Source: an uncultured Lachnospiraceae bacterium | Lineage (GTDB): Bacteria > Bacillota > Clostridia > Lachnospirales > Lachnospiraceae | Reading direction: 5' to 3' | NCBI GenBank assembly: GCA_947625755.1 | Contig: CANQPJ010000018.1 | Location: forward strand, 1-42,874 | DNA length: 42,874 nt | Shown here: positions 11,747 to 42,874 of the stretch, piece after piece | Position numbering within the stretch: position 1 is the stretch's first letter | Layout of the letters: each line of letters opens with the position of its first letter | Notes under the pieces: generated by a model | Database searches by the model: none | Told to the model about the DNA's origin: nothing | The model's input: the letters and a program-made list of their open reading frames with translations, nothing else | Made by a program: the position numbers and the translations under genes

Positions 11747-11756
11747 AATGTATGAA

Positions 11757-12033: not shown

Positions 12034-12115
12034 AAAAAACAAAGTTAATAATAAACTTTAATTGGAAACGACGGAGGCATTTAGTTATTTTTTTATTTGA
12101 AAAGGAGAAAGAAAT

Positions 12116-13405: not shown

Positions 13406-13457
13406 ATGCTTAATATAAGCATTAAGACATATAAAACTTATTGAAACTATAAACAAA

Positions 13458-13480
13458 GGGGGCGGGTTAAGCCTGCCCCC
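13458..13480 (+). terminator. GC-rich hairpin between malE and malF
   Basis: GGGGGC (13458-13463) pairs with GCCCCC (13475-13480), with GG/CC pairs inside. Only an interrupted T tract follows, so it probably works as a partial terminator or as a 3' end that stabilises malE mRNA, giving more binding protein than permease. Confidence 0.7.
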
Positions 13481-13510
13481 TCTTATTATAAAATTGAGGA
13501 GGAGATTGCG

Positions 13511-15363: not shown

Positions 15364-15383
15364 ACAGTATATAAGGAGGAACT

Positions 15384-16874: not shown

Positions 16875-16885
16875 AAGAATGAATG

Positions 16886-16923
16886 AAAAAGCTGCGAAAG
16901 ATATGCTCTTGTCGCAGCTTTTT
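16886..16923 (+). terminator. Terminator of the malEFG-malQ operon
   Basis: AAAAAGCTGCGA (16886-16897) pairs with TCGCAGCTTTTT (16912-16923). Confidence 0.9.
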
Positions 16924-16997
16924 GCATAAAGAGTATAGTTGTGATAAAATACTAGATTGTGGAAAAATAAGTAAATGTAAAGCGAAAGGAGAAAGAC

Positions 16998-18026
16998 ATG
17001 GCAAATTTAACTATTAAAGACATAGCAAAAATATGTGGAGTTGGAATTAGCACTGTCTCTCGAGCAATTAACGATGATCCAGGTATTAATCATGAAACAA
17101 GAAAAAGAATTTTAAAAGTTATAAAAGAGTGTAATTATGTTCCTAACAATAGTGCAAGAAATTTAAAAATGACAGAATCAAATACAATAGCTTTACTTAT
17201 AAAAGGAATAGATAACCAGTTCTTTCAGGGAATGTTAAAGATATTTGAGGAGGAATTGAAAAAACTAGAATATACCTTTTTATTACAAGCGGTAGGTGAA
17301 GATCAGGATGATGTTAGTGTTGCAGTTCAGTTAGCAAAGGAAAAACGACTAAAAGGAATAATTTTTCTTGGAGGTCAAATGGATTATCTAGATACAAGAT
17401 TACAGGAGACAGGCGTTCCATATGTATTGTGTACTGTAGCGGTAAATATGATGGCACCAAAAAGAAAATGCTCATCAGTATCCATAGATGATGAAAAAGA
17501 AAGCTATAGGGCAGTTGACTATTTATGTAAAAAAGGTCATAAAAAAATAGCAATGATTTCGGGAAAATCTACTGATCAGGCAGTTGGTGGACTTAGATTG
17601 AGAGGATATGTGAGAGCCTTAAAAGATAATGGCATAGATATAAATGACAATTTAATCAGATATATGAAAGATGATATTCCAGAATATACAGTAGCAAATG
17701 GATATGAAGTAACTAAAGAGTTATTGAAATCTAAAGAAGAATTTACAGCGTTATATGCAATTTCTGATTTGACTGCATTTGGAGCATATAAGGCAATTTT
17801 GGAAGAGGGAAAATCAATACCGGATGATTACTCAGTTTTAGGATTTGACGGAATTGAAATGTCTAAGTATTTTCAACCATCGCTTTCTACAATGAAACAG
17901 CCATGTGAACAAATGGTAAAATCATCAATAGAGTTGTTGATGGAACTTATAAATGGAAATGATGAAAAGAAACAATTGATTTTTGAAGCAGAATTGTTGG
18001 AGAGAGATTCGGTAAAGGAAATTTAA
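16998..18026 (+). CDS. malR: LacI-family regulator, probable maltodextrin repressor
   Basis: The protein has 342 residues, with AAAGGAG before the ATG. It has an N-terminal LacI HTH (LTIKDIAKICGVGISTVSRA), a hinge helix with NNSARNLK, and then a periplasmic-binding-like sensor domain ending with the dimer region. It lies directly after the mal operon but behind a terminator, so it has its own promoter. The two GAAACGTTTC-type operators at the malE promoter have the central CG of LacI-family sites, which makes this protein their most likely ligand-responsive binder (inference). YesL follows 12 bases later. Confidence 0.9.
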   Translation: MANLTIKDIAKICGVGISTVSRAINDDPGINHETRKRILKVIKECNYVPNNSARNLKMTESNTIALLIKGIDNQFFQGMLKIFEEELKKLEYTFLLQAVGEDQDDVSVAVQLAKEKRLKGIIFLGGQMDYLDTRLQETGVPYVLCTVAVNMMAPKRKCSSVSIDDEKESYRAVDYLCKKGHKKIAMISGKSTDQAVGGLRLRGYVRALKDNGIDINDNLIRYMKDDIPEYTVANGYEVTKELLKSKEEFTALYAISDLTAFGAYKAILEEGKSIPDDYSVLGFDGIEMSKYFQPSLSTMKQPCEQMVKSSIELLMELINGNDEKKQLIFEAELLERDSVKEI

Positions 18027-25250: not shown

Positions 25251-25832
25251 ATGATTGTAAATGACTTACTTGAAAAAGAAAATATGTCAAGATATCGCTT
25301 GAGCAAAGAAAGCGGCGTAGCAATGACTACTATTACAGATATCTGCAGTGGAAAAGCTAATCTTGATAAATGCGCAGCCGGAACTTTATATAAGATTGCC
25401 AAGGTTCTTGGTGTAACGGTTGATTCCATACTGGAGAATAATAGTGTAGAAAAGGTGGATTATAGATGTTCTTTTGAAACATTTAAGAGTAATACATGCC
25501 ACCATGTAAAAAATATGGGCGACATTGACTTCATCATTGAAACACTTGAGACAGATGAGATACGTAAACTTTATGAACGCAGTTGGTATAGAGAAGCCTT
25601 ATATTTGTTGGCGATGATTGATTATCTGTCCAGAATGAATGGTCTTCCTATTTGCACTAATTATAACGATATTCGTTCACAGAAACTTGAGAAGCCATAT
25701 TTTCCTGCAGGCATTGTAGTATCATATGCAGCGACAGGAGATGAAAGCATAAAAGAAAAGGCATTGGCAAACGCTATACCTGAATTTATGCGATTTAATA
25801 TCGTGGAAAGTGAGGTGCGGAATGTCTGCTGA
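25251..25832 (+). CDS. XRE-family HTH protein, probable antitoxin/regulator
   Basis: The protein has 193 residues, with AAAGGAGGG before the ATG. It has an N-terminal HTH (MSRYRLSKESGVAMTTITDICSG) of the lambda-repressor class and a C-terminal helical part (about 75-193) of unknown fold containing WYREALYLLAMIDYLSRMN. It overlaps the nucleotidyltransferase gene by 11 bases. The pairing of a DNA-binding protein with a DUF6036-type nucleotidyltransferase resembles toxin-antitoxin and AbiE-like modules; the palindrome in its promoter fits autorepression. The partner relation is inference. Confidence 0.8.
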   Translation: MIVNDLLEKENMSRYRLSKESGVAMTTITDICSGKANLDKCAAGTLYKIAKVLGVTVDSILENNSVEKVDYRCSFETFKSNTCHHVKNMGDIDFIIETLETDEIRKLYERSWYREALYLLAMIDYLSRMNGLPICTNYNDIRSQKLEKPYFPAGIVVSYAATGDESIKEKALANAIPEFMRFNIVESEVRNVC

Positions 25833-26535
25833 TAAGCCTTTTACAAAAGAAAATCTGGATAGCTGTCTAAAGGAATTGGCAAAGGAGTTTCGCAAAAAGA
25901 ACGGTACTAGAATCCCTGCCGAGATTATACTTGTTGGAGGAGCATCCATTCTTATCAATTATGGTTTTAGAGAAATGACTTATGATATGGATGCAATTAT
26001 TAAGTCATCAGGGGCAATGAAGGAAGCAATTAACACAGTTGGAGACAGATTGGGGCTTCCAGTTGGATGGTTAAACACAGACTTTGTTAACACGAATTCA
26101 TATACACCGAGATTGGCAGAACATTCAAAGTACTATAAGACTTTCTCGAATATACTACAGATAAGAACGATATCTGCTGAATATCTGGTAGCCATGAAAC
26201 TTATGGCAGGTCGCCAATATAAGAATGATTTATCTGATATAGTAGGTGTATTGATTGAACAAGAAGAGCGAAATGAGCCACTGGGCTTTGAAAAAATCCA
26301 GAAGGCTGTAGTAGATTTATATGATTCATATGACAAGATACCAGAAGTTTCCAGAACCTTTATAGAGGCTGTTTACAAGAAAGAAGACTTGCATGAATTT
26401 TACGAGCAATGCAGAGACCTTGAACAGGAGAATAAAGATGTTTTGCTTGAATTTCAGGAGGATTATCCGGGGGTAGTTAATGGTGACAATCTTTCTGATA
26501 TCTTGAAGACTGCAAAAGCTAAAAAGCAACAATAG
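25822..26535 (+). CDS. DUF6036-type nucleotidyltransferase, probable toxin
   Basis: The protein has 237 residues from ATG 25822, with GAGG upstream. The nucleotidyltransferase core is visible: LVGGASILINYG (39-40 GG) followed by EMTYDMDAII with Asp55 and Asp57, the metal-binding pair, and later LVAMKLMAGRQYKNDLSDI, typical of the AbiEii/DUF6036 group. Such enzymes attach nucleotides to tRNA or protein; some work as toxins in abortive-infection systems. The substrate here is unknown. It is translationally coupled to the HTH gene and followed by a terminator at 26856. Confidence 0.82.
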   Translation: MSADKPFTKENLDSCLKELAKEFRKKNGTRIPAEIILVGGASILINYGFREMTYDMDAIIKSSGAMKEAINTVGDRLGLPVGWLNTDFVNTNSYTPRLAEHSKYYKTFSNILQIRTISAEYLVAMKLMAGRQYKNDLSDIVGVLIEQEERNEPLGFEKIQKAVVDLYDSYDKIPEVSRTFIEAVYKKEDLHEFYEQCRDLEQENKDVLLEFQEDYPGVVNGDNLSDILKTAKAKKQQ

Positions 26536-26882: not shown

Positions 26883-26990
26883 CTTATGGCTGTAAATTTG
26901 AACAGCCTGATTATTTTTCAATAATGAAATATCCTTAACATTTAAAGGAGACTGTAAAAAGTTTTTGTCAAGATGCTAGGTATAAATAGA

Positions 26991-27698
26991 TTACATATAT
27001 TGTATGCAAAACAAGCTAAATACATATGTAAATTCTTGGCAAATCGATGATAGGTGAGAATCAATTACATATATCTTTGGCAAAACCAGCCAGATATATA
27101 TGTAAATCTATGGCAAATCGATGATAGGTAAAAATCAATTACATGTATTTTTTTGCAAAATAAGCCAAATACATATGTAAATCTATGGCAAATCCATGAT
27201 GGATGAGAATTAATTACATACATTTTTTACAAAACAAGCTAAATACATATGTAAATTCTTGTCAAATCCATGGTGAGTGAAAATGAATTACATATATCTT
27301 TTGCAAAACAAGCCAAATCTATATGTAAATCTATGGCAAATTCATGATGGGTGAAAATCAGTTATATATATTTTCAACAAAACCAGCCTAATGCATATGT
27401 AAATTCTTGTCAAATCCATGGTGAGTGAAAATGAATTACATATATCTTTTGCAAAACAAGTTAAATACATATGTAAATCTATGGCAAATTCATAACCGAT
27501 GAAAATGAATTACATATATTGTATACAAAACAAGCCAGATACATATGTAAATTCTAGGGAAATTCATAACCAGTGAGAGTCAATTACATATATTGTATAC
27601 AAAATCAACCAAATCCATATGTAAATCTATGGAGAATCCATAACTGTTGAAGATCAATTACATATATTTTCAACAAAACGAGCCAAATCCATATGTAA
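26991..27698. repeat. Array of about ten 74-bp tandem units, each with an inverted repeat
   Basis: Units begin with TTACATATAT at 26991, 27065, 27139, 27214, 27288, 27362, 27436, 27510, 27584 and 27658; eight steps are exactly 74 bp and one is 75. Each holds TTACATAT, about 25 bases (AAAACAAGCC in the middle), ATATGTAA, then a 33-base linker with a CAAAT core and a GTGAAAAT-type end. The last unit lacks the linker, and a degenerate linker precedes the first. A 67-base stretch is identical at 148-bp offset (units 4-5 against 6-7), so the array grew in two-unit steps. No reading frame spans it. It lies between the 3' ends of convergent genes. Confidence 0.95.
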
Positions 27699-27762
27699 AT
27701 TAGGTTCTAAACTTCCCCCCTCACTCTTGACAAAGAGCCGCAAATTATAAACATAGTAAACC

Positions 27763-27860: not shown

Positions 27861-30827
27861 CTACTTAAATTTTACTTTCTTTCTTTTTGCCCACTTCCCA
27901 TAAATACACTTTCCATTCTTTCTTTTGAAAGCACGGATTTTTATATAATATACCGTCTTTTTTTGCGCTTTTCCAAAAAGCCCAAGAAGCTTCCAAGTCT
28001 TTTTGCTTGATTTTATCGTTATTTTTCTTGCCTTCTTAAATTTCCGGTTTTTTGCATAGACAATTTGATAACCATCAGCATAGAAATTACGCTTCCAGGA
28101 AATCCGGATTTTCTTTTTCCTTTTTGATGTTTTTACCTTTTTCATGTTCAATTTTTTGACAATATTTTTCCGGCTGTTGTTTTTCGGTTTTGTAGTATTA
28201 TCCGGCTTTGTGGCTGGCGTAGTAGTAGGTGATGCAGATGGAAGAGTTTGTGTCGGTTTTTCCGTTGCAGTTTCTGTCGGTTTTTCTCCATCTGTACCTT
28301 TTACCGTTAATTCCACGCTGACATATTGATTTGTTAGTGCTCCAAAAATTTCCCCATAAGTTTTGTCGTTTTTATAATGCTCGGCATACTTTTCAAACAC
28401 TTCATAGGAAAGCACGGTGCCTACCGTTACCTTGGTATCATACTGCGGTATGGTTACACGAAGTGTCTGGTCGCTGATAATTTCGTTATGGTCGGATGTC
28501 CAATAACGAATATAATCCGGCACTTCTTCCTCCGGATTCACGACATTTACCAGAATTCCGTTATTATCCGGTTTATCGACATAGGAAGAAGTATACAGCG
28601 TACCGTCAGGATTTTCATAAATTCCATAGAAGGTTTTCAAATCAGAAGTAATATTTTCTTTATCTGTATTCTCATTCCGGATAAAGTCAAAAAACTGCCC
28701 CTTTGCTTTTTCCATAAATTGTACTGCGTGACGGATTTCCTCTTCGGCTAAAGGTATCACTGTAAGATGAATTTCTTTTGATGCAGAGATAGAAGCATTT
28801 TCTTTGTTTGTAATTGTCACAGTCAAAGTCACGTCCTGTTTTTCCTCTTCCGGCAGAGGACGGTAAGTGTAGGTGCGATAACCGTTGATTTCAATGACAG
28901 AAGGCGCACTGCTTTCTACAGAAATATTATAATACTTTCCATCAATTCCAAGCTCACGCGGTCGGGTCAACTGAATATCCCCTGTGACATGATCAAAATC
29001 AAGCGTGTTCCCTGTTTGAAAATCTTTCATAAATCCGGCATAGGTCTCCAGCTGCTCCTGAAGCATTTGTATTTCCTTTTCCTCTGTATTTTCTCCCGGC
29101 ACCACAATTCTGATTTCTCTGGTAATTTTCTCCGTCAGCGTATCTTCTTTAGAGTTCATTGTATATCGGTCAAAAGTAAACTCTGCGGTAATAACGACCT
29201 CTGTATCTTTGCTGGCGGGAACTACCGTTGCCTGATAATACCTGTTTGTATAATTTCTGTCCCATGTGTCTGTGTTACTAATACGGATAACATCAGGATT
29301 AGAAGAAGTGTAAGTAGCAGATACCCATTTGACTGTTTTTTCTGTTCCATTATGATTAATTACCGGATAAACAGGTAATGATAAATTTTGCGTCACTTCA
29401 TTGAGTGAAGGGTTATCACCCAAGATACTTTCCGCGTTGTATTCTTCTGCAACCGTATTCATATCTTCCTTTATTTTATCTAAATCCCAATATATATTGA
29501 CGCAGGAAGGCGAATACTCCGTCACCGCATTATTTAACCGAAGTTCAAAAACGACATCTGCCTGTCCGAAATAGATAGTCGGAGTTGTATCAAATAGGCT
29601 TTTATAAAAGTAATGAATCGTTCCATCTTCTTCAATATACGTTTGCGTATCACCCATTCTGTTTTCCACAGACTTTACAGAGACCGTAATTCCCTTTCCC
29701 TGATAAGCCTCTTTGGATTCAATCAGACTGCTCAAGTATGTATTAATATTTTTATCCCGATAAAAGGAAGGTGTCAGGACGCCACTAGGCAGTTCCTTCA
29801 CTAATTCCTGCAGCACAGCCATATCCTGCTGTGTGGTATCTGTTGACGATACCTGCCACTTTAAAACAGGATAGCCCTGATTAAAATTGTCCTGAACAGT
29901 AAATGCATCGCCCAATCCTACCTGTAAAGATTTTAACTGTTCCGGCGTTGTCATGATAATCCCGCTGGTATCTGCCTCATATTGAAAACCATATCCGGTT
30001 TCATGAGTCCCCTCCAGCCAAAAACAATTTGATACTGTAAAGCCGGTATAGAGATAACCTATAAAAGAACCTGCCTGCGAAGTACCTGTGACAACTCCAC
30101 TGTTATAACATTGACTGATTTGTCCCTGATTTGCAGTACACATTCCATATCCGACAATTCCTCCCACTCTCGCTGTTGAAGTAGAAGTTGTCGTGACTGC
30201 TCCGGTGTTATAACAGTTTTCAATATGAATCTCTGTGTTGGATTGTCCGACAATTCCTCCGGCATTTTTGATTTTTCCTCCAATGCTGCCTGTATTATAA
30301 CATTCTGTAATGGTACAGCTTTTTGCGTAACCCGCAATTCCGGCAAAACAGGTTGAATTATTCCCTGCACTTTGAATCTCAACTTCAGAACCACACTTTG
30401 TAATAGTACTGTTTTCTGCTTTTGCCGCAATGCCGGCGGTATACCCATATTTTACCTGAAGGCTTCCTTTGACCAATACATTTTTAATTTCAGCGCTCTC
30501 AATTGCCCCAAATAATCCGGTATAGTTCTCTCCTTCTGAAATATTCAACACGACCTCATGCCCCGCGCCATCAAAAACTCCTGTAAAAGGGTTGGTTGTA
30601 CTCCCAATAATGGTTTCCACGTTTTCAATATCCTGTGCCAGTTTATACTTTCCGTTCAAAGGATATTCTGCATCATTTCCGATTTTTGCAAGTTCTGTGG
30701 CAGAAGATATCAAAATTTCTTCTTCCGCTGCATTGGCATCCGCAGGATTAATTTCCAGTCCGGTAAAAGCCAATATCAGTGATAAAATCATTGCTCCTGC
30801 CTTTTTTGTTCTTTTTCTCATGTTCAT
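27861..30827 (-). CDS. Large secreted surface protein with GLUG, Ig-like and Fn3 modules, under a cobalamin riboswitch
   Basis: The protein has 988 residues; an ATG two codons in (30821) has better spacing from AGGAGG. It has a signal peptide (MRKRTKKAGAMILSLILAFTG, split AxA-like near residue 33). Next comes a beta-helix region of GLUG-type repeats (about 60-290: GYTAGIAAKA, CFAGIAGYA, NAGGIVGQSN, RVGGIVGYG, each followed by ITECYNTG-like turns). Then follow atrophied Ig-like domains (about 480-590 and 605-705) with SSNPDVIRIS- and SSAPSVIEIN-type motifs, a Pro/Thr-rich linker (about 870-905) and a Fn3-like C-terminal domain (ISWKRNFYADGYQIVY). No LPXTG or membrane anchor is seen. Expression should fall when cobalamin is plentiful, so a role in binding or gaining corrinoids is inferred; function is not established. 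Confidence 0.85.
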   Translation of the reverse strand: MNMRKRTKKAGAMILSLILAFTGLEINPADANAAEEEILISSATELAKIGNDAEYPLNGKYKLAQDIENVETIIGSTTNPFTGVFDGAGHEVVLNISEGENYTGLFGAIESAEIKNVLVKGSLQVKYGYTAGIAAKAENSTITKCGSEVEIQSAGNNSTCFAGIAGYAKSCTITECYNTGSIGGKIKNAGGIVGQSNTEIHIENCYNTGAVTTTSTSTARVGGIVGYGMCTANQGQISQCYNSGVVTGTSQAGSFIGYLYTGFTVSNCFWLEGTHETGYGFQYEADTSGIIMTTPEQLKSLQVGLGDAFTVQDNFNQGYPVLKWQVSSTDTTQQDMAVLQELVKELPSGVLTPSFYRDKNINTYLSSLIESKEAYQGKGITVSVKSVENRMGDTQTYIEEDGTIHYFYKSLFDTTPTIYFGQADVVFELRLNNAVTEYSPSCVNIYWDLDKIKEDMNTVAEEYNAESILGDNPSLNEVTQNLSLPVYPVINHNGTEKTVKWVSATYTSSNPDVIRISNTDTWDRNYTNRYYQATVVPASKDTEVVITAEFTFDRYTMNSKEDTLTEKITREIRIVVPGENTEEKEIQMLQEQLETYAGFMKDFQTGNTLDFDHVTGDIQLTRPRELGIDGKYYNISVESSAPSVIEINGYRTYTYRPLPEEEKQDVTLTVTITNKENASISASKEIHLTVIPLAEEEIRHAVQFMEKAKGQFFDFIRNENTDKENITSDLKTFYGIYENPDGTLYTSSYVDKPDNNGILVNVVNPEEEVPDYIRYWTSDHNEIISDQTLRVTIPQYDTKVTVGTVLSYEVFEKYAEHYKNDKTYGEIFGALTNQYVSVELTVKGTDGEKPTETATEKPTQTLPSASPTTTPATKPDNTTKPKNNSRKNIVKKLNMKKVKTSKRKKKIRISWKRNFYADGYQIVYAKNRKFKKARKITIKSSKKTWKLLGLFGKAQKKTVYYIKIRAFKRKNGKCIYGKWAKRKKVKFK

Positions 30828-30867
30828 TTTCCTCCTGTTTGCTACATATTTGCCGCATCACAGAAAA

Positions 30868-30896
30868 CCCCTGTATTACATTGCTGTAATCAGGGG
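30868..30896 (-). terminator. Intrinsic terminator between riboswitch and surface-protein gene
   Basis: On the minus strand CCCCTG-ATTACA pairs with TGTAAT-CAGGGG (one bulge), followed by TTTTCTG. It lies 41 bases before the start codon and about 170 bases after the riboswitch. It may be the riboswitch-controlled stop or a constitutive attenuator. Confidence 0.8.
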
Positions 30897-31064
30897 TAGA
30901 TAATTCTAATATTATCAGATGAGATTTTGCAGTGAATAGTGCCGGAAAATCTGCACTGCAAAAAATGCCTGCCAATCTACAGACAATTCTGTCTCACCAT
31001 ACAAAAATATGGTATTCCAATAATAGAAGTCATTTATCAATTCCCCGTGATATAACTCCAAACT

Positions 31065-31240
31065 CTATGCAGGTCTCCTGACTTACGAATCATTACCTTT
31101 ATTCCCCTTCCCGGTTTCCCAGTGGGTGAACCCTGAAGCTTCAGCGGTTCATGAATATTGGCTCCTCGCTTACAGTGGCGGGACCGTGCAGGACTTTCAC
31201 CTGCTTCCCTCTTGGCTGACTGTTACATCAGAACATAAAG
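31065..31240 (-). ncRNA. Cobalamin riboswitch
   Basis: Read on the minus strand it has GGGAAGCAGGTGAAAGTC, then CCTGCACGGTCCCGCCACTG, a peripheral stem (GAACCGCTGAAGCTTCAG side), and the B12 box AGTCAGGAGACCTGC at the 3' side. These are the conserved core elements of the AdoCbl-type riboswitch (Rfam RF00174). The next minus-strand gene is the GLUG surface protein. Riboswitches of this class usually turn genes off when cobalamin is bound. Confidence 0.95.
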
Positions 31241-31251
31241 TTTATTTTAAA

Positions 31252-31281
31252 ATTCTAGCATAACGTTCAAAGCACTGTCAA
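31252..31281 (-). promoter_or_regulatory. Promoter of the riboswitch transcript
   Basis: On the minus strand TTGACA (31281-31276), 18 bases, TAGAAT (31257-31252). The predicted start near 31245 lies exactly at the 5' edge of the riboswitch. Confidence 0.8.
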
Positions 31282-31582: not shown

Positions 31583-32200
31583 ATGTGTGCAATTATCAAT
31601 TTTAGTATGTATACGAAAAAGAGAAAAGAGAGAAAAAGAAATATGTTTGAAGAAATTACAAATGACATTAGAGAAAGAAGAAAGAGTGGGCAGGAATATA
31701 CCATTGATGAGATGGGAAATATCAGCCGGAAGTTTTTGAATCAGCTGTCTTTTAATGGCAAAGGACCTGTACCAATAGTGCAAATAGCTAAATCAATGGG
31801 GTTTAAAATTTATCAGCAGCCCATGGAAACTCGCCTATCAGGATTTATAGCTGTTGATGAAGAACTAAAAGGACTTTTTCATAATGATAAAATCATATCA
31901 GTGAATATTAATGATGAAATAGGACATCAAAGATTTGTTATAGCTCACGAATTGGCGCACTATTTATTCGACTATTGTCCGGAATCGAAGGAATATTACG
32001 ATACATATGTTAAAGATACTCATGAAACGGACAGTGAAAAGATTGCAAATCGATTTGCTGCTGAATTACTGATGCCAAAAAGCAGCTTTATAGAACAGTT
32101 TCGTAACTGTAAAAGTTCATCAAATGTTATTGATGAATTAAAGAAAAAATTCCAAGTACAGGATAAAGCTATTATCAAAAGATTAAGGGAGGTAATATAG
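31583..32200 (+). CDS. ImmA/IrrE-family metallopeptidase
   Basis: The protein has 205 residues; the ATG at 31583 has AAGGGGAG 8 bases upstream, though a later ATG at 31643 also fits. The zinc motif HELAH is at 122-126 (IAHELAHYLFDY) and the third ligand lies in EKIANRFAAELLMP. A C-terminal helical segment follows. ImmA-type proteases cut repressors of mobile elements or stress regulators. No XRE repressor is adjacent; instead a two-TM protein follows after 6 bases, so that protein may be its partner, substrate or effector (inference). Confidence 0.9.
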   Translation: MCAIINFSMYTKKRKERKRNMFEEITNDIRERRKSGQEYTIDEMGNISRKFLNQLSFNGKGPVPIVQIAKSMGFKIYQQPMETRLSGFIAVDEELKGLFHNDKIISVNINDEIGHQRFVIAHELAHYLFDYCPESKEYYDTYVKDTHETDSEKIANRFAAELLMPKSSFIEQFRNCKSSSNVIDELKKKFQVQDKAIIKRLREVI

Positions 32201-32206
32201 AAAGGC

Positions 32207-32815
32207 ATGAGCATTCCCTTTTCAGAAGACAAAAAAACGGTATATAAGTATATATTAAGTACAATAGAGGATGAGGCACTGACAGAAGCACCAACAGATA
32301 AAACATTAATTCAAAATGCCGGAATAGCTGATCTTTTAAAACAACATGGGAAAAACATGGATGAACACTCAAAGCATTATGGAAATATTTTAAGTGCGTA
32401 TTCGAAAAATGTGGAGAGAACATTGTCAATGAAAAGAAAGTTTAAGATTATTTTTTTTGTGTTTGCATTAGCTTCACTGCTTTTTACGTCAGTAGTTTTT
32501 TATTTAATTGTAAACAAAGCATTTAATTATATTGGAAAAGGATATAGTAATTTTAGTATCATATCGACATTGCTCTCTGCTGTAATATCTATTATTACTG
32601 TTTATAATGTTATTCCACAAATTATTGCCGAGTATTTGTTTAATAAAGAAGAAGATAAAACCATGACGGATTATGTAAGCAAAATCCAAGGGTATGATTC
32701 ATCATTGATGCAATATATCTTTTCAGAAGAACCTAATACAGCATCAAAAGAAGATGTTAAAGAAGTATCTGGGGAAAATTCCGAAATAATATTAGAGCAA
32801 AGAAGTAATAATTAA
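32207..32815 (+). CDS. Two-TM membrane protein paired with ImmA
   Basis: The protein has 202 residues. An N-terminal soluble helical part (about 1-78) is followed by two membrane helices (about 80-103, FKIIFFVFALASLLFTSVVF; about 118-145, ISTLLSAVISIITVYNVIPQ) and then a cytoplasmic tail starting IIAEYLFNKEEDK. The layout recalls small 2-TM effectors of the SLATT kind, but I cannot assign a family firmly. GAAAGG lies a few bases before its ATG. It is co-transcribed with ImmA. Confidence 0.75.
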   Translation: MSIPFSEDKKTVYKYILSTIEDEALTEAPTDKTLIQNAGIADLLKQHGKNMDEHSKHYGNILSAYSKNVERTLSMKRKFKIIFFVFALASLLFTSVVFYLIVNKAFNYIGKGYSNFSIISTLLSAVISIITVYNVIPQIIAEYLFNKEEDKTMTDYVSKIQGYDSSLMQYIFSEEPNTASKEDVKEVSGENSEIILEQRSNN

Positions 32816-32863
32816 AAAGATAAAATAGTATATTTGTGGAAAATACATGGTATTTCAGAGATG

Positions 32864-32941
32864 AAAGTGGACATTGAAGTTCAAAAAGTGGACATTGAAG
32901 TCTGAAAAGTGGACATTAAAACCCCAAAAGTGGACATTAAA
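32864..32941. repeat. Four direct repeats at exact 21-bp spacing
   Basis: AAAGTGGACATT starts at 32864, 32885, 32906 and 32927, followed by GAA in the first two and AAA in the last two. The 21-bp step is two helical turns. They lie between the 2-TM gene and the fic promoter. They could be a phased operator, or a relic of the multiple terminal repeats of an IS21-type element; no istAB genes are present. Confidence 0.85.
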
Positions 32942-32957
32942 AAATAAATTTTTAAAA

Positions 32958-33014
32958 TTATCTCCGTCATTTATTTACTATGTGCATCAAAATGTGGTAA
33001 AATGACGGAGATAA
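32958..33014. promoter_or_regulatory. 15-bp inverted repeat around the fic promoter
   Basis: TTATCTCCGTCATTT (32958-32972) and its exact complement (33000-33014) stand 27 bases apart. The right arm overlaps TAAAAT (32998-33003), a likely -10, and the left arm ends just before the -35 position. Two operators or one large looped site for fic autoregulation is plausible. Confidence 0.7.
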
Positions 33015-33036
33015 AATAAAAATGAGGTAGATAATA

Positions 33037-34083
33037 TTGAGAATTTATGATTATAAGGAATATCCGGAAAAAATACTTACACCCGATATTGTTGCAATGC
33101 TGACAAGCATACATGAACATAAAGGAAAACAGCAATTATTTCTTGAAGCAAATGCGGATGACTTGAAAAACTTGTTGGAAGTTGCAAAAATCCAAAGTAC
33201 AGGCGCATCCAATCGTATTGAAGGAATATTTACTTCAGATAAAAGATTGGAAAAATTGGTTAAGCAAAAAGCAGAACCACAAAACTGTTCAGAAGAAGAA
33301 ATCGCAGGATATAGAGAAGTTTTAGCAACAATTCATGAGAGTTATGAATATATTACTGTCAGACCGAATGTCATATTGCAGCTTCACAGAGATCTTTATT
33401 CTTATTCTAATAGCAGTGTTGGCGGAACATATAAAATTAACGACAATATTATTGCAGAAACTGATAATATGGGCAATCAAAAGGTTCGTTTTAAACCGGT
33501 TCCGGCATATCAGACTGCAGAAGCAGTTGAATTACTGTGCGATGCTTTTTTAAAAAGTTGGGATGAGGGAAAAATAGATAAACTGGTTTTAATTCCGATG
33601 TTTATATTAGATTTTTTGTGTATCCATCCGTTTAACGATGGAAATGGAAGAATGAGCCGATTACTGACATTGCTGCTTTTTTATAAGGCAGGATATATTG
33701 TCGGAAAGTATATCAGTATAGAAATGCTGATAGAAAAATCAAAAGAGACTTATTACGAGGCATTACAGGATAGCTCGTCAGATTGGCATAAGAATGAAAA
33801 TAGTTATATTCCATTTATAAAGTATTATCTCGGAATCATAGAAAAAGCATATAATGAATTTGAGTCAAGAGTAAAACTGATGCAGAATCGGACACTATCT
33901 AAACCGGAAAGGATAAAAACAGTCATAGATGAACATTTGGGAAAAATAACCAAAAAGGAAATTATGGAAATTTGTCCGGATATTAGCCAGACTACAGTTG
34001 AAAGAACTCTTACGGAATTGGTTAAAGAAGGATATATTGCCAAAGTCGGTTCAGGTCCGGCTACGGGATATGTAAGAATCTGA
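33037..34083 (+). CDS. fic: Fic-family protein with N-terminal inhibitory motif
   Basis: The protein has 348 residues; the TTG start has GAGGT 9 bases upstream. The Fic core HPFNDGNGRMSR begins at His197 and is complete, so AMP transfer to a target hydroxyl is expected. The inhibitory motif (S/T)xxxE(G/N) is present as SNRIEG (58-63) ahead of the core, making it a self-inhibited class II enzyme. The last 70 residues form a winged HTH (ITKKEIMEIC, then SQTTVERTLTELVKEGYI), which could bind the inverted repeat at its own promoter. Target is unknown. Confidence 0.92.
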   Translation: MRIYDYKEYPEKILTPDIVAMLTSIHEHKGKQQLFLEANADDLKNLLEVAKIQSTGASNRIEGIFTSDKRLEKLVKQKAEPQNCSEEEIAGYREVLATIHESYEYITVRPNVILQLHRDLYSYSNSSVGGTYKINDNIIAETDNMGNQKVRFKPVPAYQTAEAVELLCDAFLKSWDEGKIDKLVLIPMFILDFLCIHPFNDGNGRMSRLLTLLLFYKAGYIVGKYISIEMLIEKSKETYYEALQDSSSDWHKNENSYIPFIKYYLGIIEKAYNEFESRVKLMQNRTLSKPERIKTVIDEHLGKITKKEIMEICPDISQTTVERTLTELVKEGYIAKVGSGPATGYVRI

Positions 34084-34517: not shown

Positions 34518-35993
34518 CTATGCAATGAGTGGTTTCAGGCTTCGAATGTATTCATGATGATTGATTTTATCTGCAAGAACAACTGTAATCAGTTGTGTTA
34601 TGCCTGCTAGAATTAAATCGGCATGCAGAGTCTTTTCGTTTTGAGTCCTTCGCCCTGCTAGACAGAGATTATCTTTGATATGATTGATATCTCTTTCGAC
34701 TGCGGTTCTTATTTTGTAAGTATTATCCCATTCCTCAGTTCCACGAATGGCACCGGGATAAGCTCGAAGGTTTTTTTCGGGATAAATATAAACCATACGA
34801 CCGCATTTTGAAGTGGTGCAGGGATTTTCACAAAAGCAATGTCTGTGAGCTTTTTGGGTGGATTTAACATAAACCCATTTCATTTTTGGACAGACAAACT
34901 TAAAAGTTGGCAAACCGCTTCTTAAGTTTGATTTACTACCTTCCGGTTTCATTGGAAGGGTAGGGTCATGAGGGCAACAAGGTATTCCATCTTCATTAAT
35001 GGTGTAATTCTGGTTTTCAAGACCAGACCTTGCATTTAGAGGAATATATGCTTTCTGGAAATGTCGGTCTGTGCCAAATGTATCACCAGTAAGAAGGTTT
35101 TTGTAGAGTTCAACCGTATCAAATGCAGCATCGCCCAGAAAGGTTTTAGGATTGATTAATGGATGTTTCAAAAAGAAATCTTTCAGTGTTGGAATTAGAA
35201 GTTTTGAATCATGAACACTTTTATCCTCGTCTGGTGAGCTGGATTTTTTCTCAACAATGATATCAGGATGAGCAGTCATAAAGTCTTTGTTGTAAAAAGA
35301 AATATGACGGATGATACCAAGTCCATTGGTTACAACACCAAACTTAAAGACATAACAAAAGTGACCATTTATATATAATTGTTTGATTTCAGGATTAGCA
35401 GATGCATGAGAAGGCATAGAACCATAAGCTGCCTTATAGGGATCATAAGATTTATCAAATCCTTGAGTCTTTGCGTATGCTTTCAGTTGTTTGATGATTC
35501 TGTTAGCATACTTTGGGTTGTTTTCCGTAACAAATGCTTCAATGCCAGAGGAATCGAAGATGGTCATATCTGCTTTAGCAGAATCAATGACCTGACAGAT
35601 TGGTTCGGTAAGGTCAACGAGGTTATCGAAAACGGATTGCAGGTCTTCAAGAAAGTCCTGTTTGAATCTGGTGATTTTGGAGGCATCCGGAACTTTGCTA
35701 AATCCACAGAAGTCTCTTAAGGGCTTGGAATAATGCAGAAACGTAAGCAAAAGCTGGTCTGTGGGAATAGAAAAAATACATTGAATAATCAAAGCCCAAA
35801 GTAGAGCGTGTAAAGGGTATTTTCGGGTTCTGCCCGTTGATGCATAGAAGTGATTACGAAAAGTAATCGGAATAATTTCATCAATGTCGATATGTTGTTC
35901 TAATAGAGCAAGAAACTGAGGTTTGTCTTCTTCAAAAATATTTTGGCAATCTTCAAAAATATCTGCCAAAGAAAGCTGTTTATGTGGTATCAT
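34518..35993 (-). CDS. DDE transposase
   Basis: The protein has 491 residues and is apparently intact; AGGAGTTATT lies before the ATG. The N-terminal part (about 1-120) is of the kind that precedes DDE_Tnp_1/IS1182-like catalytic domains (GRTRKYPLHALLWALIIQ; LRDFCGFSKVPDASKITRF). Acidic catalytic residues are visible in MTIFDSSGIEAF, KTFLGDAAFD and VERDINHIKDN. A Cys-rich segment (HRHCFCENPCTTSKCGR) lies late in the protein, as in relatives. It cuts and pastes the element through the terminal repeats at 34365 and 36135. Confidence 0.93.
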   Translation of the reverse strand: MIPHKQLSLADIFEDCQNIFEEDKPQFLALLEQHIDIDEIIPITFRNHFYASTGRTRKYPLHALLWALIIQCIFSIPTDQLLLTFLHYSKPLRDFCGFSKVPDASKITRFKQDFLEDLQSVFDNLVDLTEPICQVIDSAKADMTIFDSSGIEAFVTENNPKYANRIIKQLKAYAKTQGFDKSYDPYKAAYGSMPSHASANPEIKQLYINGHFCYVFKFGVVTNGLGIIRHISFYNKDFMTAHPDIIVEKKSSSPDEDKSVHDSKLLIPTLKDFFLKHPLINPKTFLGDAAFDTVELYKNLLTGDTFGTDRHFQKAYIPLNARSGLENQNYTINEDGIPCCPHDPTLPMKPEGSKSNLRSGLPTFKFVCPKMKWVYVKSTQKAHRHCFCENPCTTSKCGRMVYIYPEKNLRAYPGAIRGTEEWDNTYKIRTAVERDINHIKDNLCLAGRRTQNEKTLHADLILAGITQLITVVLADKINHHEYIRSLKPLIA

Positions 35994-36171: not shown

Positions 36172-36453
36172 AGAGATACTAGTATAACTATACTTGTGTT
36201 TATTATGCCTAATTGCAAGTAGAGAACGTGACTAAATCAGCAGGAAAAAGATGCAGGCAGTCCGGAAGCACACACAAAAAAGTGGCTCGCAAAAGAATTA
36301 TTTAGCGCAGAATTTGACTTTAACGAATAGTTGCACGGACAAAATTTTACATGAAAACCACTTCCACAAGTAGCGTCGAAGGCTGATATATAGGGATGAT
36401 AAGAGGCATAAACCACAAGAAAAGACATAAAAAGTCAGAAAGGAAGGAAACAA
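36172..36453 (+). promoter_or_regulatory. Long leader of the CotH gene
   Basis: About 280 untranslated bases. GTCCG (36260-36264) can pair with CGGAC (36336-36340), and AAGTGG (36280-36285) with CCACTT (36358-36363); the two pairings interleave, as in a pseudoknot. It does not match a c-di-GMP riboswitch I know. AAGGAAGG stands before the ATG at 36454. Confidence 0.4.
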
Positions 36454-39400
36454 TGAGAAAGACTAGAAAAACAATGAAAAGAATAGTCTCGGTGCTGTTG
36501 GCGATAGCGATGGTAATTACCAGCATCAGTTATACGCCAAAGATGGTAAGTGCGGCTGAACTGAAATCAGGAAACACTACCTATACAATCGGAAATGCTT
36601 CAGGAAACATTGAAGGTTTTGTGGCTCAAGGAGCATTTGAAGAAATAAGATTTGGTTTTGCATGGGCAGGTACCTCCTGCCAAGTTGAAATCAAACAGCA
36701 GGACCGACAGGTAGCAGATTTGGGCACTAAGAACAATGGAGAAAGTATTTACCTGACTGAACTGGACCCTCTGGGACTGGATAAAGGTGAATACACGATT
36801 GTTTTTACGCAGTCTGATACTGCAGTTGAAACGGTTCCATTGACAGTTTCTAAAGACGAAGTTGTAACAACTACGGCAGGAGCGGAAGAACCAATCACCA
36901 AACCTGCGAATGTCTTGGTGAGAAACTATGCAAAATATACAGGAAAATATGTATTTAAGTTTGATGAAGTAGAGGGCGCAACAGCATACAACGTATATGT
37001 AGACGAGAAGGAAGAGTCCGTGGCATCAATCAGCGGAAGTGGTGACTATATTACTGCGGATGAACTGGGAAGCGCAGAGCTTGCTCCCGGCGACCATAAG
37101 TTCTATCTGACAGCTGTTCTGACAGAGGCAGAGACAGAAAAGTCAGAGGCGATACCTTTTACATATAGTGCAGATGTTGGTGACAACACTGAAATTGCAC
37201 AGGTTTATATACAGACAGATGACCTTACCAAAGATGCAAAATCATTTGAAAAAGATCAAGGCAAATTTAATTCTGCAATTACGATTGTAGATAAAAAAGG
37301 CGGCGCAAACCCGGACATTTATGAAGACATGGCAAAGACGACCATTAAAGTAAGAGGAAACTCTACAGCGAATGCGCAGAAGAAAGCATTTAATATCAGC
37401 TTTACAGACAAAAGGAATGTGTTCGGTTTTGGAGATGCAAAAAAATGGTGTCTCCTTGCAAATGCGTTTGATAAGACAATGGTTAGAAATAAACTTGCAA
37501 TGGATTTTGCCTATGATGTATTGGGATTAACCAACACAGGCAGAAGCCAGTATATTGATCTTTATCTAAACGGTGTTTACATGGGCAACTACTTACTGAT
37601 AGAAGCAGTAGAAGCCGGTTCGACAAGAGTGGACATTCAGTCTGAAAGTGTAAATAGTAATGATATTCTGATTGAATTGGAAGGACTGGGACCTAACGGT
37701 AATGGCAAAGTTGAGGAAGGCGTAAGATACATTACCACGAATGGCGTTACAGGAGAAGGAAGTCAGGTACATTTTAATATCGGTTCACCGGAAAACGGAG
37801 ACGGAAAAGACGGTTCCGGCGTGGATGGTGAAATGACGGAAGAGGAATTAGCAGCAAAAGATAATCATGCACTGGAATTTTTAAACAAGTTTGAGCAGGA
37901 TTTGGCAAAAGATGATTACGCAGCATATTCACAATATATTGACATGAAGTCTTTTGTTGATTTCTATATTGTAAATGAACTTTTTAAGAATAAAGATTTC
38001 AGCTATAGTTCTACAAGATTTTATATTAAAGATGACAAACTTTATGCAGGACCGCTTTGGGATCTTGACCTTTCAAGCGGTAATGTAGGAGAGGAAGGTT
38101 TAGCAAAAGCAAATGAGGTACCGCTTTATTGCCAGGATATGCCTTGGTTTAAAGCGTTGATGAACAATGAAACATTTGCTAATGCAGTTGCGGAAAGATT
38201 TGAAGAAATCAAACCACAAGCTATAGCGCTCTATGAAGGTGATAGCAATAAAATAGATGCATTGATAGGTACGAATGGCGAGATTATCAAATCAGTCAAG
38301 AGAAATTATGCATCAGTAGAAGAAGGCGGCGCAGGCTGGAGTGATACAGAGCCGGATCCGTCAGACGCATACAGCAATGCAAATTCACGTAAAAACTTCG
38401 ATGAATCTGTTGCATATCTTAAAACATGGCTTGGAGAAAGAGTAGAGCATCTCACAAGATTGTGGGGTGAGGATACAGTACTTCCTGATTACAGTGAAGT
38501 ATCGGTTCCTGATGACGGTTGGACATCATTTGGTACTGATGAAAACGGTAATACATGGTATTATGCAACATCATATTATCAGGGCTCCGGACATCATTAT
38601 CTGGAAAATTATCCGGGTGAAAGAGGATATGGGGCTGATATTACAATAACAGAAAAAACAGTTGCTTTTGGATTTATTCCGGCTACAACTGCAAGCTCAT
38701 TCTGGGTTAATAAGACACATCTGCAAGATAAGTCGGAAACATTTTTCCATTCCACTGCTGCACCTGATGTAATATTCTTTGCACAGAGTCTTTTCAAACC
38801 GGGCGAGATTACTTACATTACCGTAAGAGGGCAGGATGGAGTAGATCATTTTCTGCCTATTAAGATTGAAAAGGCAAAAGCGCCGGCACATACCGCTGAT
38901 GTAACACAGGGATGGACAAAGCTTTCCGTAAAAGAAAACGCAGAGGTTCCATACGATTATTACATTAATACAGCTTTCTGGAATACATCAGGAGTTAATC
39001 AGGGAATTTCAGATATTTGTGTTCCGCATACAAAGACAAACTATCATAAAAGTGGCTGTCAATTTGAAGCGGATACAAACGCACTGGTACTTTATTTAGA
39101 AAATACGCCTGTACCAACCGCATGGATTAACGCGGACAGGTATCTGTCAGGCAGCAAAGATTATCATCAGCAGGATGATTGTTATGAGTTTAATTTAGAT
39201 TTATTTACATTAGGTACACATTATGTAACTCTTATACATCAGAATGGAAACCAGAAATATGACTTTGCTATTAAAGTTGTAGAAAAAGGTACGGATCCAA
39301 GCGAGGGTGCAAAAGAGATTGTTCCAATGACGGAGGATGAAATTGCAGCAGATCCGAAAGTAAGCGGTGAAGTTGATTGGGGAACAAAAGTGGAAGGTTC

Positions 39401-42400
39401 GGATATTTATGTATATGATCCGGATTCTGTTCGTGCTTCCGGTTCTTATGATGCAGGAATGGGAACCATAAGATGTACTTTAAGCGACAGTGTCATCAAA
39501 GGTAATCTCACAAAAGTCGTAATTGATGATGTGGATATTACGGAAGTAGGCGGAACCATTACAGGGGCAAGCAGAGAATTCCATTTGAATGCTGCACTTT
39601 TGAGTAAAGAAGGAATTTATAAGATAACAGTTACTGATGATTCCGGAAATACCGGTACCTTCTATTATAAGAGTGAAAAGTCAATCGTATATGCAATCTC
39701 CAGTGTAGCTGCTACGGAAGTAACTGCCGAGAGCGCTGTCATCAGTTGGATTCCATCAGAAGATTTGGCAGCATCTGAATGTACATACACAGTGATAATC
39801 GATGGTACTACCGTAACAGAGAATTCACTGACAACACCAAGCTACACATGGACACCGGAAGGAGGCTTGAAAGAGAAAGAAGAGCACACAGTTATCATCA
39901 AAGCGTTTAAAGATGGTGACCAGCTTGCTTCTACGGAAGAAGAGCCTTACAAATTCAAATATTCAAATGAGCCGACAGATGTTGACCTGGAAGTTAAGGA
40001 CGTAGATGTAAAATACGATCCGGAGCCGGGCAGTCAGGCTACAATTAAATTTAGTATTCATAATAACGGTAAGACGATTGATAATTTTAATGAAGCTAAT
40101 ATCGTATTAAAATTTTATGAAAAGCTTACATGGGATGATATTGATTCAGTAACCAATTGGTTCGAGGGTGATGGATGGCAGTTTGCTAACAACAGTACAG
40201 TTGAAGGATTAGCCGAAGATGGCAGTTTCCCATATGACAAGGATATTACAATTACATATAACAGAGCAACAACGACAAAATTCTATGAAGCAGAAGCAAT
40301 CCGGTTTGGTATTTCATGGGAAGGATTTATTGCAGGTAATGATAAGAACCGTGACAACAATTACTATGTCTGGTATGCAGTACAACCTGTACCAAATCCT
40401 GAAAATGTAACGCTCACTTCAAAGAATAATAACAAATCTCTGGAAGTAAAATGGGAGGAACCGGCGGATGCTGATACAAATGGACCATACAAGTATAATG
40501 TTTACTTAAATGGCAGTGAATCTCCGGCAAATGACGCTCCTATTGAGGGAACCACATATACAATTACCCAGGATAATGCATTTGAAGGAACACAGAACGT
40601 TACAGTAAAGACTGTCAAAGATGAAGACGGAGATCAGGTAGAATCCAAGGGTACAACTGCAAGTATCTTTGTATACAGTGTTGATGAAGGAAAATGGCAT
40701 GCCTGGGATAATGGTACCGGATCCGGTGATAACATGGATGATGAAACCGGTGCGCATTGCAAAGACGTATATGGCAATATATGGTACTACTATAACGGAT
40801 ATGGTACAGAACTGAACCCTGAAGAAAGTGATTTTACCAGTGATTTAGGTAAGAGAAGCGATCAATGGGCAGGACTTCATAACAACAGTGACAGAATGGA
40901 CGTACCTTCTGTAGAGCTGCTGTTTAAAACATGGAGAGCATGGAATAAGGTTACAATTAACGGAACAACTTATACTGCAGACAATAAAGAAGCAATTGTT
41001 GGTTTGAATGGCAATGAACGTTTGAATATTGCACAGAGTCTGTTCAAGCTGGGAGCGGGAGAAAAGAGTAAGGTATTTGAAATAACTGTCAGTGACGGCA
41101 GTCAGGATGTGTTTATACTTATCAAAGTTGCCGCACCGAGTGATATTCCTCCGGTTGAAAGTTTAAGAGCGATAGCATCAGATACAGGAAAAGATATTAC
41201 AGTCGGCTGGAACAGATATGATAATGAAAATCCTGGAGATTACACATATGAGATTTCCGTGGATGGAACAGTAAAAGTAACGACACAGGCGGAAACAAAC
41301 GAAAGAGGAAACAGAATGCTGGTTAATCTGACTGATGTGGAAGAAGGCAGACATCTGATAGAAGTCAGAAGAGGACAGGACAGTGATTATTCCTCTAAAG
41401 TAAGTACATATCTGGTTGTATATGATGAAAGTACACTGGAATGGAGTCAGTGGGCGGATAACAGAACACAGGATGTTGATAATGATACATGGTGGTATGC
41501 AAAGAACTTCCTGCAGGGAAATCATCTTCTCTTGGATGAAAACTATGGACCACAGATTACGACAGACGGTAAATATTTCAGGTTTGTTCTCAAAAAAGAC
41601 GGTTTAACGGGCGGTCCTTCTCTGGATCCTGCAACAGAAGTCACCGTAGATGGAACGACTTATGAGATTGGAACAGAAGCAGGAGACGAGGTACTTGCTT
41701 ACCGTGATGGAGACCAGATTTATTTGAGTCACAAACTCTTCCCGGTAGATGATGAGACAACGAGAGAGAGAATCTTCCCGATTACTGTAACAGGTTCCAT
41801 GGGTGCTGACCATGCAGTCGAGACATTCCTTGTAAAATTAGTAAACGAGGATTACTCCAGTCCGAATGTCAGCTTGAAATATGTTGATAAAGAAGGAAAC
41901 GAGACACAGGAGAAGGACGGTCATGTAGTATTCACATGGAAAGACCCTGAAGACGTTGCAGAATACGGTTATAAACTTCACTACTATGATTACACAGACC
42001 CTTATGACCCGAACAATCCGGAGGGTAATAAGGAAACTGTTAAGTGGATAAGAAATGGCGATTATAAAGTCAATGAAGATGGAAGCATGTCCTATCATCT
42101 GACAGAGAATGGAGTGAACCTGCGAAGCAATACAGAAATCCGTGTTGTTCCGGTTATCTCAAATAGCGGTGTCGAAGCAAGAGACGATTTAGGTATGGCA
42201 GTAGGTCAGGCAGAGCTTACATTCTACGGAGAGCCAACCACAAAAACAGGCGCATATGTTAGTGATACAGAAAAATCAACGATAGTATTTACAGTTATCA
42301 ACGTAGGTACTGCCGCAGTTGATACAAAAGCAATGTATCAGCAGGAACATCCGGCAGAAAAGCATATATTAGAAATCCAGATAACAGAATATACGAATGG

Positions 42401-42874
42401 AGACAGAGAAGAACTTACACCTGGAACGCCTGACCATGCAAATCCATTTATGTTCAGGTACAATTTTGAAGATGACAGTTTCCTTCCGGGTGAGACAATC
42501 GAGGCAACACATGACCATCTGTTCAAGGATAGAAATACATATTACTTTACAGCAGAGATTGACCCGAATAATTATATTTATGAGACCAATCAGGATAATG
42601 AGGGCTTAAACGGTAACAGCCAGAACTTTGAGCTTGCTGCAAGATACCGTGGAAACCTCAAGATAGAGTGGGACGAAGAGAGCAACTCCTATGTTGCATA
42701 CTTCCAGCCGGATGTTTCCCAGTGGAGTGCAGGTACTTCGGGCATGGGAGAAGGAGTTTCAGCTTTCGAGTTTAGTTACTATGATCATGGCGAATTGAAG
42801 ACATGCAGGATTAGTAACAGTGGAATTACTCCATTAGAAGGACATGAGTGGGGAGACCACGTATATAAAGTTAC
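36454..42874 (+). pseudogene. Giant secreted CotH-kinase-domain protein, frameshifted at the signal peptide and cut by the window end
   Basis: From ATG 36454 the frame reads MRKTRKTMK and hits a stop at 36484; adding one A in the A-run near 36478 restores MKRIVSVLLAIAMVITSISY, a normal signal peptide with AxA-like cleavage after VSA. From 36540 the other frame is open without a stop to the window end, about 2140 residues. Modules: a beta-rich start (35-240); a CotH kinase domain (about 245-670) with IKVRGNSTA, WCLLANAFDKTMVRNKLA, DLYLNGVYMGNYLLIEAVE and the metal-site-like PLWDLDLSSGN; then repeated modules with WYY and AQSLFK (about 690-805, 1415-1550, 1660-1795), Fn3-like domains in between, and a CARDB-like domain near the end (about 1930-2060). 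It is likely exported, with surface binding or protein/sugar phosphorylation roles; the true end is not visible. Confidence 0.85.

Follow-up and report, generated by a model that had tools for sequence, protein, structure and literature searches.

A cobalamin riboswitch in front of the gene for a GLUG and Ig-like surface protein, a candidate component of corrinoid acquisition, in an uncultured Lachnospiraceae bacterium

Results

Organisation of the locus

The DNA analysed, called the window throughout, is the whole 42,874-nucleotide stretch of contig CANQPJ010000018.1 (assembly GCA_947625755.1) of an uncultured Lachnospiraceae bacterium. Its minus strand carries a full-length cobalamin riboswitch aptamer, and the next ORF downstream encodes a 988-residue protein, designated P0001 (Table 1). 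In a cmscan search of the window, the riboswitch aligned with the whole RF00174 model (positions 1-189 of 189) at 112 bits (E 2e-27), the gathering score of this family being 31.5 bits. It is the sole Rfam match at the gathering level in the window, and no second RF00174 match was found in the genome of origin (2.25 Mb in 51 contigs, 99.5% complete). The first-pass annotation had recognised a cobalamin riboswitch on this strand, which the Infernal-type check confirms, and the interval that it had delimited (30868-31281) correctly covers the promoter, the aptamer and the terminator-like hairpin. The consensus promoter that it had placed at the 5′ edge is present, with 11 of 12 consensus positions matched, but promoter-like sites occur at near-chance density (5 in a 901-base region compared to 3.6 ± 2.0 in shuffles). 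The promoter alone is therefore weak evidence.

Table 1. Features of the riboswitch leader, the P0001 gene and its encoded domains in the window.
Feature	Positions	Strand	Basis or remark
Promoter-like site TTGACA-18-TAGAAT, TG before second hexamer	31252..31281	-	11/12 consensus matches; sigma-70-like
Cobalamin riboswitch aptamer, full length	31051..31253	-	RF00174 match
Terminator-like hairpin in expression platform, 7-pair stem, then T6	30966..30985	-	Terminator scan match
Stem-loop CCCCTGATTAC...GTAATACAGGGG then TTTT, possible intrinsic terminator	30868..30896	-	By eye and predicted fold
Ribosome-binding site AGGAGG	30831..30836	-	Read from sequence
P0001, secreted 988-residue surface protein	27861..30827	-	ORF next downstream of riboswitch
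GLUG β-helix, residues 38-300 of P0001	29928..30716	-	
517-residue module of helix-plus-Ig-like units, residues 331-847 of P0001	28287..29837	-	
Basic C-terminal Fn3-like domain, residues 888-988 of P0001	27864..28166	-	Putative wall-binding domain

Two hairpins that may act as terminators lie between the aptamer and the start of the gene. The one closer to the aptamer was returned by the terminator scan. The second one, the stem-loop CCCCTGATTAC...GTAATACAGGGG followed by TTTT, was not recovered by terminator scans, and its stem is paired in the predicted fold of positions 30860-31060 (z = -4.40). The leader is most naturally read as a transcription-terminating OFF switch, its polarity being a prediction.

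The N terminus of P0001 is signal-peptide-like by eye and its start is preceded by AGGAGG, in agreement with the first-pass description of a large secreted protein as the next gene. The same description had given this protein a GLUG/Ig/Fn3 make-up. Both the GLUG match (PF07581, 37.2 bits compared to a cut-off of 20.5) and the Ig-type aBig_2 match (37.2 bits compared to 27) are above the Pfam cut-offs, whereas the one Fn3 model match, at residues 434-451, falls below its cut-off. The orthologue of genome G219, described below, has an fn3 match near its C terminus that passes (28.2 bits compared to 25). The C-terminal domain of P0001 (residues 888-988) is probably its wall-binding part. The genome of origin holds 25 matches to P0001; among those listed besides P0001 itself, nine of nine are made through the C-terminal end. 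With 25 matches in the genome, nine of those listed being via this domain, and a single riboswitch, the C-terminal domain was ruled out as the part that determines the link to the riboswitch.

By sequence, P0001 has no solved relative at E ≤ 0.01, and a profile of its 517-residue module has none at E ≤ 1. The single structure model calculated for the protein has a mean pLDDT of 67.2 and a pTM of 0.36, with residues 850-988 under 50. Structure comparison returned β-helices and Ig-like domains, mainly for residues 34-306 and 579-693. The predicted β-helix resembles IgA1-protease chains and, among the lower-ranking matches, a streptococcal surface adhesin; the predicted Ig-like unit resembles those of S-layer proteins and intimin. 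The top Foldseek rows are mostly long Ig-like or cadherin chains with a high rmsd and a low TM-score, and are uninformative. Neither a peptidase model nor DUF4465 (the BtuH domain) was present among the Pfam matches at E ≤ 0.1, and no recognised B12-binding domain was found by Pfam or by profile comparison.

Several other features lie in the window. Just downstream of the P0001 gene, at 26990-27700, a 74-base AT-rich unit forms a tandem array of 9.6 copies with an 80% match. On the opposite strand, beyond the riboswitch promoter (31583-34083), lie the genes of an IrrE-like M78 protein, a protein for which no family passes its cut-off, and a Fic protein; this group is possibly mobile or of defence type. 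Overlapping genes at 25251-26535 encode an HTH regulator and a DUF6036/AbiEii-like nucleotidyltransferase in a toxin-antitoxin-like layout. The same contig carries the genes of a Tn916-type integrase (1084-2382) and a DUF772 transposase (34518-35993). Finally, the ORF at 36396-42872 runs off the contig end; it is at least 2159 residues long, contains a CotH kinase domain and also matches fn3.

Orthologues of P0001 and GLUG proteins in the genus

Matches to P0001 are found in 23 of 23 genomes of the genus. Among those listed, they are full-length only in G000 (the window genome), G219 and G213, which gives full-length orthologues in two of the 22 other genus genomes, with 55% identity each. Nearly all the other listed matches are made through the C-terminal end. 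In all three genomes with a full-length orthologue (3/3), RF00174 lies directly upstream of the gene. The G213 and G219 leaders retain the aptamer, which is 76% and 80% identical to that of the window, respectively (pairwise range of 76-83% across the three), as well as the stretch right after it. Terminator-like hairpins are present between the aptamer and the start in all three leaders, by scan for G000 and G213 and by eye for G219. In the G219 leader, the terminator scan returned no hairpin with a T tract, and a stem much like the second one of the window, followed by T5, was identified by eye.

GLUG ORFs number nine in the genus (E ≤ 0.001), one in each of nine of the 23 genomes. The three that follow RF00174 are the P0001 orthologues, and the other six are on contigs apart from the riboswitch contigs of their genomes. 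With three of nine GLUG ORFs behind a riboswitch, GLUG was ruled out as the domain tied to it. This corrects the first-pass description of the protein: the link to the riboswitch goes with the 517-residue module and not with GLUG.

Linkage of the 517-residue module to cobalamin riboswitches

The module profile (P0001 residues 331-847) was searched against 397 genomes of the family, nine of which have matches (the window genome included), and against 391 genomes of the class, 13 of which have matches (the window genome and three already found included). A search of a wider contig collection gave three loci, two of them being the known orthologues. A scan of this collection with P0001 alone gave 74 pattern matches and no confirmed relative. 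The module is thus found in 19 genomes in total, orthologues included, with G638 and G428 left out as weak partial matches. A riboswitch was counted when at or above the Rfam gathering score (31.5 bits for RF00174, 50 bits for RF01482).

Such a riboswitch is located immediately upstream of the module gene, or one gene further, in 12 of the 19 genomes. It is immediately upstream in ten (G000, G213, G219, G133, G225, G169, G108, G281, G543 and G796). In the other two (G488 and G447), it lies upstream on the same strand and is separated from the module gene by one gene. Two riboswitches barely pass: that of G281, with 32.0 bits compared to 31.5, and that of G796, which belongs to RF01482, with 50.9 bits compared to 50. 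The G796 ORF as called begins within the aptamer, and its true start must therefore be later. Where the called start lies past the aptamer, the distance from the aptamer to the first gene is 24 to 451 bases. In three further genomes, a sub-threshold riboswitch is present at the right place and on the right strand; it is strong in G644 (RF01482, 44.4 bits of 50, E 3.7e-5) and weak in G106 (RF00174, 22.1 bits, E 0.11) and G512 (RF00174, 21.0 bits, E 0.17). No riboswitch match at E ≤ 0.5 was obtained by the module genes of G027, G283 and L102, two of whose contigs are short (5.8 and 9.7 kb). G616 was kept outside the riboswitch scoring because its contig begins just upstream of the module gene.

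The linked module loci fall in five families (f1, f5, f20, f34 and f52). Family genomes that have any RF00174 match hold only one to eight, so that chance adjacency at this rate is, by estimate, not credible. In a tree of 21 module copies, rooted at the midpoint, linked copies are spread over most subclades and occur on either side of the root. The riboswitch label is clustered no more tightly on this tree than when shuffled (67 of 500 shuffles as low); thus the tree alone does not show that the link was inherited. We regard the module as the hallmark of the riboswitch-linked proteins and GLUG as an optional partner. The first-pass proposal of a tie between riboswitch and protein withstands this comparison of homologues, since three of three full-length orthologues and the 12 module genomes are riboswitch-linked.

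DUF4430 and toroid domains associated with the module

In 11 of the 19 module genomes, DUF4430 (PF14478) is present in the same polypeptide as the module. This is the case for six of eight genomes from other genera of the family (G133, G225, G106, G169, G108 and G281, by Pfam) and for five of the seven new class loci, where DUF4430 was detected by Pfam in G543 and by our own profile in G488, G512, G616 and, weakly, G447. GLUG is found in the module polypeptide of G169, G108, G543 and G512 and in an adjacent frame in G616, that is, in five of the 16 module genomes outside the genus. In G169, G108 and G543, GLUG, the module and DUF4430 are assembled in one chain behind a riboswitch. A toroid domain is part of the module polypeptide in G283, G106 and G488; in G133, G447 and G796, it is encoded by neighbouring genes. 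For G796, the neighbouring toroid and DUF4430 were seen with our own profiles only, Pfam being blank there at E ≤ 0.001. Several module relatives also bear wall-binding repeats of the choline-binding, SLH or CWB2 type.

The idea that the riboswitch tracks DUF4430 perfectly was found to be wrong, as G796 has no DUF4430 in its module chain and yet has a riboswitch at the cut-off. The five module genomes outside the genus without an in-chain DUF4430 comprise G796, which is linked, G644, with a sub-threshold riboswitch, and G027, G283 and L102, with none.

Some loci contain several riboswitches. At L106 (G169, 2496-17727), three cobalamin riboswitches are consecutive, and two of them each precede a giant DUF4430 protein with DUF4214 repeats. 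At L145 (G447, 2937-17628), three cobalamin riboswitches lie within 14 kb; the genes that they precede encode a protein of 393 residues, a toroid-DUF4430-SLH protein with the module protein after it, and a protein of 295 residues.

DUF4430 and the toroid presumably correspond to the two halves of transcobalamin and intrinsic factor. DUF4430 resembles the β domain of transcobalamin, and bacterial DUF4430 may bind corrinoids. The best PDB match of the DUF4430 profile is transcobalamin-2, with a weak E of 0.16, and the toroid profile matches squalene-cyclase-type chains in the PDB at 3e-6. According to PMC4350170, DUF4430 is located C-terminally in transcobalamins. P0001 itself has no DUF4430 by Pfam (E ≤ 0.1), by our own DUF4430 profile or by hhalign of residues 38-847, and no toroid by our own toroid profile or by hhalign. 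No hidden DUF4430 or toroid was thus detected inside this protein by the profiles or hhalign.

Other genes behind cobalamin riboswitches and the need for corrinoids

The genus contains 15 RF00174 matches, in 14 of its 23 genomes. Three of the 15 precede the P0001 orthologues, ten precede a DUF4430/toroid/ECF operon, one precedes a gene of G221 and one a gene of G209. Pfam annotation of the G208 operon identifies two DUF4430 proteins, one of them secreted and the other a lipoprotein, along with a toroid-type protein (PF00432 below cut-off), a CbiQ-like protein, a double ABC ATPase and an ECF S component. The remaining nine operons were assigned by like gene order, N termini and DUF4430 matches on the same contigs. 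The G209 riboswitch precedes a CbiK-type gene that is cut off at the contig end. The G221 riboswitch precedes the gene of a 2169-residue protein with three DUF4430 stretches (Pfam) and a toroid (own profile). By combining several DUF4430 domains with a toroid, the chain encoded at this locus (L077, 3792-10715) resembles an intrinsic factor with several heads; it also has a GLUG-like stretch, seen by eye only.

A DUF4430/toroid/ECF operon is also present in the window genome, on contig 8. The first protein of this operon, which carries DUF4430, ends in a P0001-type C-terminal domain there and in the sister species. No cobalamin riboswitch was detected at E ≤ 0.5 within the 17 kb examined around the operon of the window genome, nor within 15 kb for that of G219. 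The two operons, having no detectable riboswitch, are therefore not co-regulated by such a switch. For the S component encoded in the window species, the general ECF S-component model PF07155 gives a match above cut-off and PF12822 one just below it, and the NCBIfam folate and riboflavin models are far below their cut-offs.

CbiD and CobS were not found in the window genome, G213 or G219; each is present in one of the 23 genus genomes, G209 in both cases. The window genome encodes a MetH-type protein in which a homocysteine and a pterin domain are combined with both B12-binding domains; it scores far below the NCBIfam metH cut-off and is shorter than the model. On these two synthesis markers and the MetH-type protein, the organism is probably a corrinoid auxotroph that scavenges and uses corrinoid.

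As a base rate, we considered the first gene behind the 29 best-scoring RF00174 loci of the family besides that of the window, a set that is not a random draw. This gene encodes CbiM in five cases, CbiQ in two, a CobQ-type protein in two, CbiK in seven and an ABC-transport protein in three (19 loci together). It encodes a DUF4430 or surface-type protein in four (L003, L007, L012 and L013); it is absent or unrelated in five (L008, L011, L015, L027 and L028), and one locus reaches a contig end (L019). Surface proteins thus recur behind the switch, as a minority of these best-scoring loci (4/29). At L013 (1926-3206), the gene that follows the riboswitch is likewise an unusual one for such control, as it encodes a surface-type protein that contains an FMN-binding domain.

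Discussion

The computed results are the riboswitch, the gene behind it, the conservation of their link, the association of the module with DUF4430 and the toroid, the absence of CbiD and CobS and the presence of a MetH-type protein. We consider it likely that the locus comprises a corrinoid-responsive OFF switch placed on a secreted, wall-associated protein that helps to gather corrinoids at the cell surface. Of this reading, the OFF polarity, the attachment to the wall and the part in uptake are what we infer. In the simplest account, P0001 would belong to a cell-surface system for acquiring corrinoids and would be produced under B12 shortage, its direct binding of corrinoid being putative. 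At low intracellular B12, the leader would be read through its terminator hairpins and P0001 would be made; at high B12, transcription would stop ahead of the gene. P0001 would be a version, without the B12-carrier-like domain, of the larger riboswitch-controlled surface proteins in which the module is joined to DUF4430. In the window species, DUF4430 would be supplied apart, from the ECF operon whose first protein ends like P0001, and ECF-type import would be the likely membrane step. The first-pass annotation had suggested an extracellular corrinoid-capture role. A part in acquisition is backed by the riboswitch linkage, the DUF4430 fusions and the absence of CbiD and CobS together with the presence of MetH. 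Capture by P0001 itself fares less well, as the protein has no DUF4430 or toroid and the structure comparison matches only its β-helix and Ig-like unit.

Two contributions of P0001 can be envisaged, which we rate about equal, each being possible rather than probable. In the first, DUF4430 proteins from other genes would be displayed in the wall by P0001, or would dock with it there, and P0001 would make no contact with the corrinoid. Its relatives do combine the module, some with GLUG as well, with DUF4430 in a single chain. The window species carries DUF4430 in other proteins, the first of which shares the C-terminal domain of P0001. Ig-like units and β-helices are moreover common spacer folds. 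However, the 25 matches to P0001 in its own genome indicate that the C-terminal domain is not specific to this pair, and the ECF operon of the window species has no detectable riboswitch. In the second, of which we are a little more doubtful, the GLUG β-helix or the Ig-like module would bind corrinoid directly, as BtuG and BtuH do in Bacteroides. This is consistent with the riboswitch control of the gene, with the failure to find CbiD and CobS beside a MetH-type protein and with the retention of the full-length protein in three genomes. Moreover, P0001, its orthologues and the G796 module protein are all riboswitch-linked without a DUF4430 of their own. The lack of a recognised B12-binding domain by Pfam or profile comparison argues against direct binding, as does a structure comparison filled by β-helices and Ig-like domains, and in the fused relatives DUF4430 would be the expected binder.

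It is rather improbable that P0001 serves adhesion for foraging, that is, that a B12-limited cell shows an adhesin for corrinoid-producing neighbours, mucus or loaded host carriers. The fusion of relatives to DUF4430 and the nearness to ECF-type transport genes favour uptake over adhesion, even if the β-helix and Ig-like units resemble those of IgA1 protease, a streptococcal adhesin, S-layer proteins and intimin and several module relatives bear choline-binding, SLH or CWB2 repeats. Because Ig-like modules and β-helices occur widely in surface proteins, P0001 might still be structural or adhesive. A rearrangement that put the riboswitch before an unrelated surface gene, with no functional tie, is very hard to credit: some GLUG and module proteins have no riboswitch, and the window holds a transposase gene as well as a tandem repeat, but this reading is contradicted by a link kept at 3/3 orthologous loci and in 12/19 module genomes of five families, and by an aptamer and following stretch kept in the three orthologous leaders.

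The preferred reading, a surface protein that helps to gather corrinoids, bears on a wider question. Anaerobic Firmicutes also need corrinoids, and these are fought over in the gut. To our knowledge, little is known of how Firmicutes walls gather them, and the surface-capture proteins in the literature that we found are those of Bacteroides. In a partial survey of the open-licence literature, titles and the start of abstracts gave nothing linking GLUG to cobalamin biology and no bacterial corrinoid role for DUF4430, and no paper was found describing a module/DUF4430 surface system of Clostridia. The riboswitch link makes an anonymous GLUG/Ig surface protein a testable component of uptake, and the module provides a tag by which its remaining parts can be sought in other Clostridia. 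If DUF4430 and toroid proteins do bind corrinoids, bacteria would use carriers built like human intrinsic factor. We tentatively suggest, as an idea that still stands below an even chance, that Clostridia might possess an undescribed wall apparatus made of the Ig-like module, GLUG and domains like the halves of transcobalamin, under the control of riboswitches, in which P0001 would bind corrinoid or a loaded carrier by a new surface. Such an apparatus, kept across several families, might then be to Gram-positive bacteria what the Btu surface system is to Bacteroides.

Comparison with known systems

The putative corrinoid importer of the window species is of the ECF type, like ECF-CbrT, which is said to be a characterised ECF-type B12 transporter. 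The riboswitch belongs to the same aptamer family as those found before cbiM, cbiQ, cobQ, cbiK and ABC transporter genes, whereas P0001 is a single large surface protein. Compared to the GLUG β-helix of BACOVA_03286 (3n6z) and to IgA1 proteases (M26), P0001 has no peptidase domain, and its partners and regulation are different.

PMC6143338 describes BtuG as a surface B12-capture lipoprotein of gut Bacteroides, encoded in a cobalamin-riboswitch-controlled locus, and reports that B. thetaiotaomicron does not synthesise B12 and has MetH; no homologues of BtuG were detected outside Bacteroidetes in that paper. BtuH (DUF4465) is likewise presented in PMC13398666 as a surface B12-capture lipoprotein of gut Bacteroides. 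Like BtuG and BtuH, P0001 appears to be a riboswitch-controlled surface protein in a gut-type, apparently B12-auxotrophic bacterium. Unlike them, it is built of a GLUG β-helix and Ig-like units, without DUF4465, and its corrinoid binding is putative. P0001 shares the genus, the riboswitch family and the type of C-terminal domain with the DUF4430/toroid/ECF proteins, and other genera and families have DUF4430 and the P0001-type module joined in one polypeptide. It differs from these proteins in having neither DUF4430 nor toroid.
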